Positions 26,410-40,400 of a stretch of DNA of 45,870 nucleotides are shown piece by piece; positions within the stretch are counted from its first letter, which is position 1, and every line of letters begins with the position of its first letter. Where the stretch lies: contig CAJTDN010000023.1 of NCBI GenBank assembly GCA_910574865.1, forward strand, positions 1 through 45,870, in the 5' to 3' direction. The position numbers and the translations under genes were made by a program. The notes beneath the pieces are model-generated. The model was not told the origin of the DNA, made no database searches, and was given only the letters and a program-made list of their open reading frames with translations. The DNA is from Lachnospiraceae bacterium (GTDB lineage: Bacteria; Bacillota; Clostridia; Lachnospirales; Lachnospiraceae).

Positions 26410-27381
26410 CTATTTCAACATCTGTAATTTCGCGTCCAGCGTTTCCATCAGTTCCTTGGGAATCTGTGGCATGTGCCCTTGCAATTGTCGCAGAGTGGCC
26501 TTTTGCATCATCGGGTGCTGCCTGGCCTGTTCCACCATCGGCAGGCTTTCAAACACGATTTTCCGAGCCTCGTCGTTGGCGAGGAGCATATCAAGCGGCG
26601 TATCGATACCATACCGCCCGAATCGTCCGTCATTTACACCATAAATCGTGAAATCTCCCAGTTTGTCGGCAAGCCACTGTATGCACATGGGAAACCACTG
26701 GGCGAAAGCGGGGTTGACCATCTTTTGGTCGCCGCCGCAGGTAAGTGACTTGGCGAGGGACAGCCCGTGCACGCCGCTGCGGAAAATATGTAGTTCGAAA
26801 TCCCCCCCGGCCTTGTCCAGTGCCTGGGCGAACGCGAGCGGGTGCACCGGCGGCGTAATTTGGTCGTCGCGCGTGGAAAATAGGAAGGTCGGTGGCGTGT
26901 GTTCGTCCACGGATTCCACGATGTCGGGACATTCCAGGGCGCGCAGGTCGCTGTGGACGATGCCGGGATACCCAAGGACAAGCGCGTCCGGACGCAGCGG
27001 GCCGTGCGTGGCCGAGGCGCCTGCCAGGTGCCCGCCTCCGGAAAATCCGATCATCGCCATCTTGTGCGGTGCAAGAAAATAGCTTTCCTCGTTTTCTTGC
27101 AAATGAACTAGCGCGAGTTGCACGTCTTGCATGGAATCTTCTATCGTTGCGTCCGGTTTCTTCGTGACGGTGGTGTAGTCGAGGACGAAGGCCTGGTATC
27201 CTTCCGCAAAAAATGCCATGGCCACGGGTTCGCCCTCCCGTGCGCTGCAGAAACGAAATCCCCCGCCAGGCAGGACGAGGATGGCCGGGTATCGTTCGAT
27301 GTTTGCCATTTCCGGGGTCGGCTCGTGTAAATAGCCGGTGAGTGTGGCGTGTTCGCCTAGTTTGTATTGAATAAGTTTCAT
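26410..27381 (-). CDS. Alpha/beta-hydrolase, carbohydrate-esterase-like
   Basis: A 323-residue cytoplasmic protein of the acetyl-esterase/lipase type. The oxyanion-hole motif is PGGGF (38-42), the nucleophile elbow GFSGGGHLAG places Ser114, the acid is probably in STRDDQITPP and the base His in FRSGVHGLSLA. Such enzymes deacetylate xylo-oligosaccharides and other sugars, which fits the glycosidases around it. After the usual ~240-residue core, a C-terminal ~75-residue extension (YGVNDGRFGRYGIDTPLDML, then the Met/Gln-rich tail) resembles a helical domain and is unusual. AAGGAGG sits eight bases before the ATG and is joined directly to the repeat array at 27397-27833, which forms its leader. 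Confidence 0.83.
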   Translation of the reverse strand: MKLIQYKLGEHATLTGYLHEPTPEMANIERYPAILVLPGGGFRFCSAREGEPVAMAFFAEGYQAFVLDYTTVTKKPDATIEDSMQDVQLALVHLQENEESYFLAPHKMAMIGFSGGGHLAGASATHGPLRPDALVLGYPGIVHSDLRALECPDIVESVDEHTPPTFLFSTRDDQITPPVHPLAFAQALDKAGGDFELHIFRSGVHGLSLAKSLTCGGDQKMVNPAFAQWFPMCIQWLADKLGDFTIYGVNDGRFGRYGIDTPLDMLLANDEARKIVFESLPMVEQARQHPMMQKATLRQLQGHMPQIPKELMETLDAKLQMLK

Positions 27382-27396
27382 GAAAATGCCTCCTTA

Positions 27397-27833
27397 CTAT
27401 GAGCACTTAGCACCTGTGTTTTAGGTGCTTACGTGCGAATGTAGTTACCTGCAACTTGGCGAGGTCTTTTCGAGCCTAGTGCAGTGTAACTTCCGCGATG
27501 CTATGAGCACTTAGCACCTGTGTTTTAGGTGCTTACGTGCGAATGTAGTTACCTGCAACTTGGCGAGGTCTTTTCGAGCCTAGTGCAGTGTAACTTCCGC
27601 GATGCTATGAGCACTTAGCACCTGTGTTTTAGGTGCTTACGTGCGAATGTAGTTACCTGCAACTTGGCGAGGTCTTTTCGAGCCTAGTGCAGTGTAACTT
27701 CCGTGATGCTATGAGCACTTAGCACCTGTGTTTTAGGTGCTTACGTGCGAATGTAGTTACCTGCAACTTGGCGAGGTCTTTTCGAGCCTAGTGCAGTGTA
27801 ACTTCCGTGATGCTATGAGCACTTAGCACCTGT
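27397..27833 (-). repeat. Four tandem 104-bp structured leader repeats before the esterase gene
   Basis: Copies start at 27397, 27501, 27605 and 27709, with a 21-base fifth at 27813-27833; they differ at one position (CGCG/CGTG). Read in the gene's direction each unit has a long stem, AGTTAC-A-CTGCA with TGCAG-GTAACT, around CTAGGCTCG...CCTCGCCAAG. Then comes a 7-bp hairpin AGCACCT/AGGTGCT with a 7-base loop, and the end GTGCTCATAG. The last copy runs directly into TAAGGAGG of the esterase gene. A TATAAT (27836-27841, minus strand) lies just upstream, so the array should be the 5' leader of the mRNA. Confidence 0.9.
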
Positions 27834-27873: not shown

Positions 27874-28347
27874 ATGACGGAATTTCTGGGATTTTAGAAA
27901 TAAAAGTAACCTGGAGCAGGAAGTGCCCGAAGCCGACATACACGACAAATGCATGAGTAAATAATAAGCAGCATAAAAGAAGACATTGAATTGGCAAGTC
28001 GGGCAGTAAGAGGTTACTGGAGCATAGAAAGTATGCATTGGCATCTGGATGTGACATTCCGTGAAGATGAAAACCGAACCATAGATAAAATAGCAGCCCA
28101 GAATCTGAACATCATAAGAAAATGGAGTCTGAGTATCTTGAAAATGACCGATGTATCAAGAAATAAAAGGTTGCCAATGAAAAAGAAACGGTATGTGATT
28201 GGTCTGCGTCCAATAAAGCATTTAGAAGAGGTGCTAAACGTTTAAAATGATACCAGGGTCAAAATGTATTTTGACCCCAACACCATCTTAAAATGTGGCA
28301 AAAATAAAATTGGGTAAGGAGAACCGTTCATGCGTTTGTCGTTGAAT
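27874..28347 (+). pseudogene. ISAs1-family transposase, internally deleted copy 1
   Basis: The right part (to 28245) reads ELASRAVRGYWSIESMHWHL, DVTFREDENRTIDKIAAQN and LNIIRKWSLSILK, the hallmark C-terminus of ISAs1 (DDE_Tnp_ISAS1) transposases with its catalytic Glu region. To its left, a few codons in shifting frames (LEQEVPEADIHDKCMSK) resemble the transposase N-terminus, so most of the middle is gone. After the stop comes the IS end (GTAAGGAGAACCGTTCATGC), shared with copy 2 at 30030-30052. A 38-bp foreign insertion lies at 28250-28287. Non-functional. Confidence 0.75.
28250..28287. mobile_element. 38-bp miniature inverted-repeat insertion with target duplication
   Basis: Perfect GGGTCAAAA/TTTTGACCC arms around TGTA, with short flanks ATACCA and CCAACACCATC. 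It is bracketed by TTAAAATG at 28242-28249 and 28288-28295. The second ISAs1 copy (30006-30013) has a single TTAAAATG with the same flanks and no insertion, the empty site. Confidence 0.85.
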
Positions 28348-28445
28348 TAGAGGAACAGTCGTTGAACAAAGATGTGTTTTGTGGTATCATATTGTAAAAG
28401 CAAATGAACTTGAGGGAAATGCATAGGATAGAGTGGGGGAATTTG

Positions 28446-29649: not shown

Positions 29650-30060
29650 AAAACAGGTCGAAGGCGGATTATGTGTCGGCGCTGAAAGGAAACCAGGGAA
29701 CATTATATGAAGATGTGAAAGAATATTTTGGAGATAAGGAGTTTTTATGGGAAATCAAGGAAAAAGGGAATTATAAAAAGACGCAGGAAAAAGCCCATGG
29801 TCAGGTGGAAACGAGAGAATATTATCAAACGGAGGATATTCACTGGTTGGGACAGAAAAAAAGCTGGAAAGGGCTAAAAAGTATTCTTATGGAGAAAAAA
29901 ACGCTGGAAAAGGAAGGAATACGGAAAGAAGAATACCGATATTTCATAAGCAGCATAAAAGAAGACATTGAATTGGCAAGTCGGGCAGTAAGAGGTGCTA
30001 AACGTTTAAAATGTGGCAAAAATAAAATTGGGTAAGGAGAACCGTTCATGCATTTGTCGT
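29650..30060 (+). pseudogene. ISAs1-family transposase, internally deleted copy 2
   Basis: Reads SKADYVSALKGNQGTLYEDV, then EKAHGQVETREYYQTEDIHW, LASRAVRG, all central ISAs1 transposase motifs, and then jumps at AGAGGT straight to the codons just before the stop (GCTAAACGTTTAAAATG). Copy 1 carries the sequence missing here, bounded by AGAGGT at both ends, so the deletion came from recombination between short direct repeats. The 5' part is cut by the IS110 remnant. The IS right end (to ~30060) lies just before the ssrA promoter. Confidence 0.8.
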
Positions 30061-30079
30061 GGCTTTAATAAAAATACCC

Positions 30080-30175: not shown

Positions 30176-30516
30176 GGGCTTGTACTGGTTTCGACAGGGA
30201 TTCTGAAGATGGAGAAGCTATCCGCAGGCGATGCGTCAAATCGCGACCTTAAAATTAAACGCTAACGATAATTTCGAATTAGCTGCGGCCTAATTGCCGC
30301 ATGTCAGCCCCGGGGTACCCGCACCTTGGGAACCTGGCATCAACCATGCGGGAAACGATACCGGCAAAGCTTTGAACCGGTAGGCGTATCATGAAGCTAC
30401 TGAAACCGTAAGGATGTTCGTTTCCGTGCGGCAGAGGGAATGAAAAAGAACGGACTATGATAGTAGAAGTACATGGGATGGATTTTTGGACGCGGGTTCG
30501 ACTCCCGCCAGGTCCA
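30176..30516 (+). ncRNA. ssrA: Transfer-messenger RNA (tmRNA)
   Basis: It rescues stalled ribosomes with SmpB and tags the product for degradation. The 5' end GGGCTTGTACTGGTTTCGAC and the 3' end GGGTTCGACTCCCGCC-AGGTCC are the tRNA-like halves; GGGCTTG pairs with CAGGTCC as acceptor stem, with discriminator A30516. The CCA is not encoded. The open frame GCT AAC GAT AAT TTC... to TAA encodes the tag ANDNFELAAA (resume codon at ~30261), typical in ending in hydrophobic-Ala-Ala. It is the anchor of a mobile-element hot spot on both sides. Confidence 0.97.
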
Positions 30517-30527
30517 GTCACGGGGGA

Positions 30528-34572: not shown

Positions 34573-34643
34573 AAAAGAAGAAAATTTCCTTGCGTCCAAT
34601 ATTTGCCTATGTTATCATTATCTTAAGCGTTTTCTTAAAAGAT

Positions 34644-34890
34644 GATACCAGGGTCAAAAGGTCATGTGTTCCATGCTTGCATGGAAAAGCATGACTTTGG
34701 AAGTGCGCAAAACACCGAAAAGTAGCCATTTTCCGTAGGAAAATGAGCGGATTTGAGGTGTTTTAGGGCACTGGACGTCCAGTGGACGTTCGTTTAGTGC
34801 CGACCGTAGCGGAGCGGAGACAACGAGAGCACGTAGTGCGGAGTAATCCGTGGGTATCATGGGGGCAAAACTTGTTTTGACCCCAACATC
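34644..34890. mobile_element. 247-bp non-autonomous element with terminal repeats and target duplication
   Basis: Ends GATACCAGGGTCAAAA and (complement) GATGTTGGGGTCAAAA match at 12 of 16 and resemble the 38-bp insertion at 28250. The direct repeat CTTAAAAGAT lies at 34634-34643 and 34890-34899. Inside are several stems: CCATGC/GCATGG, CATTTTCC/GGAAAATG, the palindrome CACTGGACGTCCAGTG, GGCACT/AGTGCC and ATGATACC/GGTATCAT. No ORF of note. Confidence 0.75.
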
Positions 34891-36553: not shown

Positions 36554-36737
36554 GGAAGTTACGCTGCACTAGGCTCGAGGGAAACTCCACACGACTAGGC
36601 TCGTAAAGAACCTCGCCAAGGTGTGTGGAGTGCATTCACACTAAGCTCGTGAAAAACCTCGCTAAGTGTTCATGGCAAGTTGCAGGTAACTACATTCGCA
36701 CGTAAGCATCCAAAGGACGGATGCTAAATGCTCATAG
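36554..36737 (+). repeat. Structured leader repeat, elaborated copy, before araD
   Basis: Same element as the array at 27397-27833, in the direction of araD and with two extra modules inserted. Outer stem AGTTAC-G-CTGCA with TGCAG-GTAACT. Nested modules have arms ACTCCACAC/GTGTGGAGT and ACACT/AGTGT around CTA(G/A)GCTCG...CCTCGC(C/T)AAG. Then the hairpin AGCATCC/GGATGCT, and ATGCTCATAG joined to TAAGGAGG of araD. Two base pairs in the last hairpin differ from the array with pairing kept. Confidence 0.88.
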
Positions 36738-36753
36738 TAAGGAGGTTGAAATC

Positions 36754-37449
36754 ATGTTAGAACAATTGAAAAAGGAAGTTTATGAGGCGAACATGCTCCT
36801 GCCCAAGCACGGGCTGGTGACGTTCACGTGGGGAAACGTCAGCGGCATTGACCGGGAGAAGGGCTTGTTCGTCATCAAGCCGAGCGGCGTGGAGTATGAC
36901 AAGCTGACCCCGGAGGACATGGTGGTCGTGGACTTGCAGGGGAACAAGGTGGAGGGAAAATACAACCCGTCCTCCGACACGCCGACGCATATGGTGCTCT
37001 ACAACCGATTTGCCAATGTCGGCGGTATCGTGCACACGCATTCGGCCTGGGCCACGAGCTGGGCGCAGGCGGGACGCGACATCCCGTGTTACGGGACGAC
37101 CCACGCGGATTACATTTATGGGGAAGTGCCGTGCGTGCGCAACCTGACGAAGGAAGAGATTGACGAGGCGTACGAGCTGAACACGGGAATCCTGATTGCC
37201 GACGAGTTCGAGCGCAGGAAGAAGGATTACGTGGCGGTGCCGGCGGTGCTTTGCAAGAACCACGGGCCGTTCACATGGGGCAAGGACGCGCACGAGGCGG
37301 TGCATAACGCGGTCGTTTTAGAGGAAGTGGCGAAGATGGCGGCCCGCTGCGAACTGATTAATCCGCAAAATCAGCCGGCCCCGCAGGAATTGCAGGACAA
37401 GCACTATTACAGGAAGCATGGCGAGAACGCGTATTACGGACAGAATTAA
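36754..37449 (+). CDS. araD: L-ribulose-5-phosphate 4-epimerase
   Basis: A 231-residue class II aldolase-fold enzyme turning L-ribulose 5-phosphate into D-xylulose 5-phosphate. The start at 36754 follows AAGGAGG. Zinc ligands are His94 and His96 in [17 protein letters not shown] and His170 in [11 protein letters not shown]; Asp75 in SSDTPTH is the usual fourth catalytic position. Also typical are [19 protein letters not shown] at the N-terminus and [16 protein letters not shown]. Length is that of the AraD/UlaF/SgbE group, and these cannot be split with certainty. It follows the FGGY kinase but is separated by the structured repeat, so may be controlled separately. The end has a Gln/Asn-rich extension. 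Confidence 0.93.
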
Positions 37450-37499: not shown

Positions 37500-40400
37500 A
37501 TGGGCTACAAGTATCAGCTTAACAGGGACAATTATTATCGATTTGACGTGATGGAAATAGGCAAGCTGGCTCCCCGCAGCTATTTCATCCCGTTTTCATC
37601 GCGGAATGCGGCGGACGCGGTGACGGCCAAGGAGAAGCGGTATGCTTCTACCAAGGCGAAGTGCTTAAGCGGGGAGTGGGATTTCAAGTTTTACGCGGTT
37701 CCGTCACAGATGCCGAGCGTGCTTGACACGGACGCGGCCGGGTTTGACAAGATTGACGTGCCGGCGTGTTGGCAGTTTCGGGGATATGACAGGCCGTTTT
37801 ACCTTAACACCCGTTACCAGTTCCCGTATAATCCGCCGGAAATCCCGAAAGAGGACGCGGTGGGAAGGACCTTTAGCTGGATGGGATCCGACTTGGGTAT
37901 AAAGCCGCGCTGGCAGCAGCCGGAGGACGAGTACAATTTCGTTGGCGTTTACCGCAGGACGGTGGATTTGGGAGAGCAAAAGGCCGGTTATATCTTAAGT
38001 TTCCTGGGTGTGGCGAGTTGTATCGACCTTTACGTCAACGGGCAGTTCGTGGGATATTCGGAAGGCGCCCACAACATGGCGGAGTTTGACGTTGGCGGGA
38101 AAATGCATGACGGGGAAAATGAAATCGTGGCGGTCGTTCATCGCTGGTGTACGGGGACGTACCTGGAAGCGCAGGACATGTTCCGCAATAACGGTATTTT
38201 CCGTGACGTGTTATTATATGAACTGAACGAGACGGACATCCTTGACGTGGACTTCCGCATGAAGAAAATGACGGCGGCGCAGGTCGCGGCCGCGGGCAAG
38301 TCGGCGGGTGACGGCAACGTGTCCAAAGCGGACGAAGAGGCGGGCGCGTATTACCGCGCGTTGGCGAGCGTGGAGTTGACGAAGGACGCGGACGTGACGT
38401 TTACCTTGTGTGGCAACGGAATCAGCGAGAGCGTCACCGTCTCGTCAAAGGATAAAAAGGCGGTGGCGAAGTTCCATTGCCTGGACGTGAAGGAGTGGAA
38501 CGCCGAAGAGCCGGTTCTTTACGATTTGTACTATGAAATTGAGGGAACCTGCGTGAAACAGCGTGTCGGCTTCAAAGACATTGAAATCAAGGACTGCGTG
38601 TATTACTTGAACGGGCATAAAATCAAGTTCCGCGGGGTCAACCATCACGATACCAGTTGTACGAACGGCTACACGATGACACCGGACGAGATTGAGCGTG
38701 ACGTGCGTCTGTGCAAGGAGTTCAACATTGATACCGTGCGCACGTCCCATTACCCGCCAGATCCGTTGTTCATGGAGTTGTGCGACGAGTTGGGCGTGTA
38801 CGTGGTGGATGAGACGGACATTGAGACGCACGGCACGTTTTCACACCAGTTCCCGCCGACGTACAATTCGATTAGCCACGACCCCAAGTGGGAAAACCGG
38901 TTTCTGGACCGCGTGCGGCGGATGTACCATCGGGACAAGACACATGTCAGCGTGATTTTGTGGAGCCTGGGCAACGAGTCCGGCGGCTATGCCAACACGG
39001 ACAGGATGTACAAGTGGCTCAAGGGCGTGACGCGGATTCCGGTGCATTATGAGAGCGTCGTGCACAGCAAGCGCAAGGCCTATGACGTCGGCAGCGAAAT
39101 GTACCCGCCGGTGGCGAACGTCCACCTGGTTGGCGAGAAAATGAGCAAGACGGAGCAGTTTAACGACCGGCCGTACTTCTTGTGCGAGTACGCCCACGCG
39201 ATGGGGGTCGGGCCGGGAAATATCGAGAGTTATTGGAAGGAAATTTACCGTTACGACAACCTGATGGGCGGCTGCGTCTGGGAGATGGTCGACCACGCGG
39301 TGCTGCACGGGGACGGCAGCTACACGTATGGCGGTGACCACGGAGAGTGGGAGCATGACGGCAATTTCTGCGTGGACGGTATTTTTTATCCGGACAGGAC
39401 ACCTTCGACCGGGGCGAGGATCGTGCGCTTCACCTATCGTCCGTTGCGCGTGGCCTATCTGGGGATGAACCGTTTCGAGGTGTTCAACACGATGGCCTTT
39501 TCGGACGGTGCGCGTTATAAGATGAGGTTCTGCCTGACGGGGGCCGGTGAGGAAGTGACGACGTTTGAAAGGCAAGTCACGGTCGCCCCGCTTTCGAAGA
39601 CGGTGGTGGAACTCGAGCTTCCGGCAAGCCTTGGGGCGGACAGCCAGTTGACGGTCACGACCGTTGACACGGTTACGAATCGCGAAGTGGCGGTGGAGCA
39701 GATCGAGCTGACTGCGCCCTTCCTTCCGATGCCGAAGACGGACGGGACGGACGAGAATGCCATGTCTTATGCATGGCAGAACGGGAAACCGGAGATTACC
39801 GTTGGAAAGAGCAGCTTGGAATGCGCCCTGCCGTATACGGTGCTGTTCCGTGCCCCGACGGACAACGATACCGGTTTTGTCGGCAGCACGATGGGGGATT
39901 TTGTGCCGTTTAGCGAGAATATTGTCTCCGTGGACATGGGGACGGACGGGGCCGACCACAAGATTACGGTGGTCAGCGAAATCCGCTGCAAGAAGCATGT
40001 CTTTACCTGCACCGACGTATACGAAAGTTGCGCGGAGGGCATCCTGGTCACGAGCAGGCTCCATTGCGACAAGGGGGGCGGGTTCGTGCCGAGGTTTGGC
40101 AAGGCTTTCCGGCTTGACGCGGCGTTTGACAAGGTGGAATACTTGGCGAGGAACGCGGAGTCCTACGTCGACATGAAAGACCAGGCGCAGATTGAAAAGG
40201 TGGGCTGCACCGTGAAGGACATGACGGAGCCGAACATCCGCCCGCAGGAGAGCGGAAACCGTTGCGACTGCCGTTACGTGACGTTGTCGGACGGGGAAGG
40301 GCAGATTACGTTCAAGGCCGTGGGAAAACCGTTCGAGCTGGGTATCAAGCCGTATTCCGACAAGGCGTTGATGCTGATGAAGCATCGCGAGGACGAGGTG

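Follow-up and report, generated by a model that had tools for sequence, protein, structure and literature searches.

What is the nested hairpin structure in front of an araD-like gene in a Lachnospiraceae genome: a leader RNA belonging to that gene, or a member of something wider? The stretch of DNA that we analysed, the window, comprises 45,870 nucleotides of contig CAJTDN010000023.1 (Lachnospiraceae bacterium, assembly GCA_910574865.1), and the structure occupies positions 36554..36739 of its plus strand. The initial annotation had compared it with an array of similar hairpins elsewhere in the window, had noticed base changes on both sides of the stems and had read it as a leader RNA with a conserved fold. 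We consider it likely that the structure is a single copy of a non-coding palindromic repeat that is modular in build, dispersed in genomes of Lachnospiraceae and broadly comparable to BOX and REP elements. The base changes in the stems are genuine, yet what they mark is a repeat that spreads, not a leader specific to araD.

When the window's genome (G000, a 5.33 Mb draft; G-numbers denote genomes and L-numbers loci) was searched by BLAST with a 187-nt query, 86 matches were obtained, the window copy being the best of them. Two other members of the genus gave 57 and 50 matches and the remaining nine 1 to 4; the element is dense in three of the 12 genus members. Its hairpins carry a core, described below, and a relaxed pattern of this core was found in 97 of 397 genomes of the family, with a maximum of 126 copies in one genome, and the reversed control pattern gave two hits in total. 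A stricter pattern was present in all 12 genus members, in 2 of 25 other genomes of the family and in none of 24 genomes from the other families of the order. The core loci found in a named sequence collection (at least 80 among the matches listed, which may lack a record of the window's own genome) had titles that referred to Lachnospiraceae or to genera that we take to belong to this family, or were unspecific (bacterium, Clostridia, Clostridiaceae). No blastn match to the 187-nt copy was found in plasmid and phage collections, and among viral contigs the core pattern occurred in one, where no second hairpin was noticed. Rfam gave no relevant family, either at the gathering score over the window or at E-values up to 10 over the element, where two chance-level matches were the only ones. 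A likeness to the twister-sister ribozyme (GCUCAU) was dropped, there being no such Rfam match. Literature searches, which covered open-licence papers and are weak evidence on this point, yielded no account of the repeat.

The copies that we read follow one plan: GGAA, a first hairpin, a linker with ATTC, a second hairpin, TCATRG and then YA, and the YA at the end of the unit forms pairs with bases that precede the linker (TAC/GTA or TGC/GCA). The first stem exists in two forms, GTTAC/GTAAC (type A) and ACTCC/GGAGT (type B), and the second hairpin also has two forms. Each of the two hairpins of this basic unit carries or resembles the core C-UA-RRY-UCG-N5-ACCUC-RYY-AA-G or a variant with full pairing. 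Judged by eye, the stem of the core is interrupted by two internal loops, UA/AA and UC/UC, and capped by seven loop bases of the form AAANNAC, a loop that the fully paired variant shares. A type B unit can stand by itself, be tandemly repeated, lie within the first hairpin of a type A unit (the case before araD) or replace the tip of a type A second hairpin. In the arrays that were read, the units within one array share one terminal stem, and several arrays start with a truncated copy, as does the array in the window. One stem variant, AGCACTC/GAGTGCT, looked CIRCE-like; this likeness was dropped, as the stem sequence varies between loci.

Other arrangements of the core were also seen in G000. 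At L234, L241, L243 and L244 a GGCTTTC..TTCAATGCC hairpin lies beside CAA-core-TTTCGGGAT, and this arrangement does not stand at a Shine-Dalgarno sequence in sense. Element copies at L009/L075, L234 and L023 are interrupted by inserts of about 200 nt with inverted ends; the insert at L009/L075 resembles that at L234, and the one at L023 differs.

In the window copy a type A unit holds a type B unit inside its first hairpin. By sequence reading and folding, the outer (first) hairpin is formed by AGTTAC-G-CTGCA (36557..36568) and TGCAG-GTAACT (36681..36691). The modules that the initial annotation had placed inside the outer stem are there, in the form of a two-hairpin type B unit at 36580..36679, recognised by sequence reading and by BLAST matches to query positions 27-127. 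Its first hairpin has arms at 36584-36592 and 36623-36631 with the core at 36595-36620, and its second hairpin (36638-36669) has the core at 36641-36666. The terminal hairpin follows at 36691..36739 and is supported by covariation, with closing TAC/GTA, a lower stem GCAC/(A)TGC and an apical stem AGCATCC (36705-36711)/GGATGCT (36719-36725) around the loop AAAGGAC (36712-36718). One pair of its lower stem, C36701 against A36728, is broken, a detail absent from the initial annotation. Directly 3' of the element lie a Shine-Dalgarno sequence, AGGAGG (36740..36745), and the ATG at 36754, an arrangement that recurs elsewhere. All of these features are on the plus strand.

The array used for comparison lies at 27395..27833 on the minus strand and consists of four full type A units and a fifth, 5'-truncated one, with a period of 104 nt; its last 3' end joins the Shine-Dalgarno sequence of an alpha/beta-hydrolase-like gene (26410-27381, minus strand). 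The folding energy of an array unit was better than that of any of 200 shuffled sequences (z -4.24). The changes reported for the terminal hairpin could be reproduced: between the array (AGCACCT/AGGTGCT) and the araD copy a C-G pair has become U-A and a U-A pair C-G with the pairing intact, and the loop is kept at seven bases (AAAACAC in the array). The outer stem is likewise the same in both except for its bulged base, which is G at araD and A in the array. The substitution proposed for an inner module, from CTAGGC..GCC to CTAAGC..GCT, did not survive. CTAGGC comes from the core of the array's first hairpin and CTAAGC from the second hairpin of the nested unit, so that the compared hairpins occupy different places of the element and there is no homologous substitution; the G-C/A-U pair in question nevertheless covaries over the family.

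Covariation was scored for the cores and for the terminal hairpin. For the cores we used 149 distinct sequences from 116 loci, eight of them from the window's genus, and left three middle positions free on both sides in counting. It was found that 97.3% of the pairs were Watson-Crick, compared with 72.1 +/- 1.5% (highest 76.7%) when the 3' sides were shuffled. The first core pair, in which purine and pyrimidine are free, was complementary in 144 of 149 cores. The range of pair types is an underestimate, because the search patterns used to collect these loci restrict the middle positions. For the terminal hairpin, 33 of 38 distinct hairpins were aligned together with the window copy, near duplicates and one odd context being omitted. 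In these 34 distinct copies 95.4% of the pair cells were standard and nine of 14 pairs showed double-sided changes, with 68 double-sided cells, values reached in none of 500 shuffles; sliding the partner by 1 to 3 columns lowered the pairing to 17-37%. The two pairs cited originally (columns 20-32 and 22-30) were standard in 33 and 32 of the 34 copies, so changes that break the pairing at these positions are confined to one and two copies, respectively. The pairing has thus been kept through many double-sided changes in cores and terminal hairpins, and the fold is real.

What kept the pairing is a separate question. If a sense RNA is under selection, G-U pairs should be tolerated and A-C combinations avoided. 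Over the cores and the apical and closing pairs of the terminal hairpins of the genus loci we counted four G-U and 28 A-C, whereas type B first stems had 24 G-U and no A-C (one in a recount, and some of these cells are possibly misaligned), a mixed result overall. The first count, together with the 64 double-changed cells against one one-sided cell in the apical stem of the terminal hairpin, would fit quasipalindrome correction, in which hairpin-templated correction of DNA makes double-sided changes, so that mutation rather than selection keeps the pairing. We regard this as quite improbable: most of the A-C cells belong to the first pair, next to an internal loop, the type B first stems show the opposite pattern, although perhaps partly through misalignment, and the constant bases of the loop and internal loops would stay unexplained. 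The excerpted text of PMC3116915 describes compensatory changes as common in the REPINs of Pseudomonas, too, which are mobile palindromic DNA, and the covariation is therefore compatible with selection on single-stranded DNA during spread. By this analogy, covariation alone is no proof of selection on RNA.

The placement of the copies was examined in the clade of the window. In a first set of 45 type A and type B loci of G000, 43 have their end immediately before a Shine-Dalgarno sequence with a start codon behind it, in sense, and the other two (L059 and L066, with type B units) end at the 5' end of tRNA-Cys genes. Loci with the core in other arrangements (L234, L235, L237, L240-L244) had been set aside from this set, the element ends of L060, L066 and L236 were assigned by eye, and the 3'-end search described next revealed about 20 further places in G000. 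To avoid choosing loci by position, the 3' end motif AAGTGYTCATNG was also searched alone. It gave 80 hits in G000, 50 in G008 and 42 in G011, and the reversed controls gave 3, 1 and 3. We classified 77, 50 and 22 distinct 3'-end contexts, respectively; the sample of G011 is biased, as 20 of its 42 places were listed and its 22 contexts come partly from loci fetched for other reasons. After internal ends and matches without a hairpin had been removed by eye, 92 of 99 terminal 3' ends were followed by a Shine-Dalgarno sequence and start codon in sense (43 in G000, 32 in G008, 17 in G011), 91 of them at an offset of at most 5 nt. At 40,000 random positions of the G000 loci the same rule was satisfied by 11.9%, or by 5.3% when the offset was limited to 5 nt. 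Of 18 contexts classed as 'other' (9, 7 and 2 in the three genomes), sorting by eye assigned seven to matches without a hairpin, four to internal ends and seven to terminal ends outside the rule; at L415 and L416, among the last, the Shine-Dalgarno sequence comes about 30 nt further on, and L343 runs into another sequence. When the first start codon had to open a reading frame of 50 codons or more, 39 of 46 distinct ends, from a subset of the loci, passed.

This sense placement at Shine-Dalgarno sites, the strong covariation, the conserved loops, the tolerance of G-U in type B first stems and an invariant ACCUC in the core that could pair with the GAGGU of a Shine-Dalgarno sequence would all suit a class of cis-regulatory RNA (a riboswitch, protein-binding leader or translation insulator) with a genome-wide regulon under selection. 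We nevertheless consider such a class unlikely. The genes behind the element are unrelated (DnaB, a class I tRNA synthetase, RpiB, an ammonium transporter, an ECF transporter subunit and a response regulator), and no coherent set was apparent among the eight downstream proteins examined besides araD. From our own reading, we take the synthetase to be valS, and further downstream genes to be purM and dnaX. In most relatives araD and purM lack the element, the number and composition of units vary between close relatives at one site, and the core stands in either orientation in other genera. In addition, when the window copy is folded together with its start region, the Shine-Dalgarno sequence is unpaired in the centroid structure, although in the minimum-energy fold part of it lies in a weak local hairpin.

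The araD site was compared with the corresponding sites of relatives. In G011, whose AraD protein is 97% identical, the gene is preceded by ..ATGTAAGGAGGCAAAGTT-ATG without the element, and in G008 by ..ATGTAAGGA-[element]-TAAAGGAGGCAAAGTT-ATG; G000 and G008 have the same insertion point with a differently nested element. In nine further genus genomes no element was present in the upstream stretch inspected, so that araD lacks it in 10 of 11 other members of the genus, and the same element stands before unrelated genes; the proposal of a leader RNA of araD is thereby abandoned. Similarly, purM is preceded by two units in G000, by one in G008 and by none in nine others (G011 gave no purM match). 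At 16 further sites, compared with G008, G011 and G007, ten were empty in at least one relative, seven carried a differently composed element in one relative or more, and three (L017, L073 and L245) showed 5'-truncated forms with the 3' end intact.

The best reading of the copy number, the nesting, the covariation, the sense placement at Shine-Dalgarno sites and the empty or differently assembled sites is that of a BOX/REP-like, formerly or still mobile repeat that has settled at ribosome-binding sites, its structure being kept in RNA, single-stranded DNA or both. The copies would have spread by transposition-like copying, the hairpins would have been selected in single-stranded DNA, in mRNA or in both, and the effect on the downstream gene would be modest. 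In the clade of the window the copies of this type lie in one orientation, in sense, in 5' leaders, often inside operons, with the 3' end joined to the Shine-Dalgarno sequence, which leaves an upstream stop codon and the downstream ribosome-binding site intact. We hold the element to be a structured, mostly tolerated leader insertion; judged from sequence, regulation by it is possible.

Several results weigh against this reading. Eight of 13 G000 loci fetched for the core had other arrangements and were not at a Shine-Dalgarno sequence in sense. No sense bias of the core was found among 80 loci of other genera. In the terminal hairpin the number of further standard pair types did not exceed that of the shuffles (392 of 500 as high), and the folding energy of the window copy with the start region was not significant (z -1.68, 14 of 200 shuffles as good). 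No target duplication could be recognised: TAAGGA flanks the element on both sides at araD, and at 22 sites the own left and right flanks were no more alike than permuted ones (P 0.45), so that the AAGGA on the left may belong to the element. Finally, no intact Y1 transposase was found in G000, which gave three partial matches, and none at all in G008; other mobilising enzymes were not searched.

The counts behind the second of these points were as follows. Of 107 cores at the 80 named loci, 69 were usable, lying outside predicted reading frames with both neighbours called (20 lay inside frames of the rather crude caller). With respect to the upstream and downstream gene, 26 were antisense-antisense, 19 sense-sense, 13 sense-antisense and 11 antisense-sense. 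In G414, the genome with 126 copies, 30 loci were fetched, and the downstream gene was antisense for 27 of their 33 distinct cores, again no sense bias. A core between rplW and rplB (named by eye) is in sense in G002, G003 and G010 and antisense in G183. The lock on the Shine-Dalgarno sequence is therefore a feature of the type A and type B units of the window's clade. At L101 and L110, which come from two further genomes of the family, core hairpins were seen by eye immediately upstream of the 5' end of 16S rRNA.

That the 3' end is exact and the 5' end frequently truncated suggests that copying begins on the 3' side; alternatively, the 3' side could be preserved by selection for an intact ribosome-binding site. 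A more specific form of the first idea is a mobile hairpin family that targets ribosome-binding sites, copying itself in one orientation and anchored at its 3' end into or beside AAGGAGG, perhaps via an RNA intermediate. Such copying would leave the right end exact and the left end often shortened or tandemly repeated. We put this forward tentatively, as something that may well not hold; if true, each insertion would give a gene a ready structured leader and rebuild its ribosome-binding site, and would be a natural source of uniform 5' leaders.

The transposase result also bears on whether the element could derive from REP/RAYT or IS200/IS605 and be mobilised by a Y1 transposase. In favour of this are its many intergenic copies with palindromic hairpins and internal loops, and compensatory changes are known from REPINs, as the excerpts of PMC3116915 report. 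Besides the partial matches in G000 and their absence from G008, the core (within one mismatch per side) was absent from 24 of 25 Y1 loci of the genus and present at one, and the copies read had, by eye, no constant GTAG-type foot before the palindrome; GTAG precedes the first hairpin on the reverse strand in type A and not in type B. RAYT/Y1-driven spread in the clade was rejected on these transposase data, and we regard descent from such elements as very doubtful.

Among known systems, the BOX element of Streptococcus pneumoniae, as described in the excerpts of PMC3049150, is the closest in build, being a modular composite with many intergenic copies, a variable number of units, a folded transcript, no link to a single gene function and length differences between strains. 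Modules in variable number and order and many intergenic copies are also what we found here. By the same partial account, BOX copies are enriched between convergent genes, carry terminal inverted repeats and show target duplications, whereas the clade's copies lie in sense at Shine-Dalgarno sites, no terminal inverted repeats were seen by eye and the flank test was negative; in addition, units nest inside hairpins here. REP, BIME and REPIN sequences (excerpts of PMC3116915 and PMC8266576) are likewise short, mostly extragenic palindromes in many copies, with compensatory changes reported in REPINs, but they differ in their RAYT enzyme and constant foot motif, neither of which the Lachnospiraceae repeat presents. 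The TAACTGA repeats of Beggiatoaceae share many intergenic copies and a proposed post-transcriptional role; in the excerpts of PMC4679880 they are short direct repeats and not nested hairpins.

The repeat is new as a family-wide variant of small interspersed repeats, unusual in its nesting inside hairpins and in its sense placement at ribosome-binding sites. Its core, present in about one in four of the genomes sampled from the family, lies outside all Rfam models. In one clade dozens of translation start sites carry the repeat, either because the route of insertion recognises ribosome-binding sites or because selection retained only such copies, and both options give testable predictions on how repeats become leader RNAs. 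The case is also a warning that covariation before a gene does not by itself make a regulatory RNA of that gene.

A second structured high-copy sequence of the same genomes is Clostridiales-1 RNA (RF01699, an Rfam gene/sRNA entry; excerpts of PMC2864571). It differs from the hairpin element in sequence and is matched by an Rfam model of its own, which does not hit the element. One copy lies in the window at 34643-34859 (+), and it is a high-copy dispersed repeat in the genus, with 95 matches in G000, 38 in G007, 27 in G008, 25 in G004 and 18 in G011, some of them side by side.

The gene behind the window copy (36754..37449, +) encodes a class II aldolase family protein (Pfam Aldolase_II), and its upstream neighbour is an FGGY kinase gene, an order consistent with araD after araB. 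Elsewhere in the window, direct repeats of 51 and 62 nt (100% and 94% identical) were found at 28226-28349 and 29946-30067, about 1.7-2.0 kb apart and near the tmRNA gene at 30176-30519.
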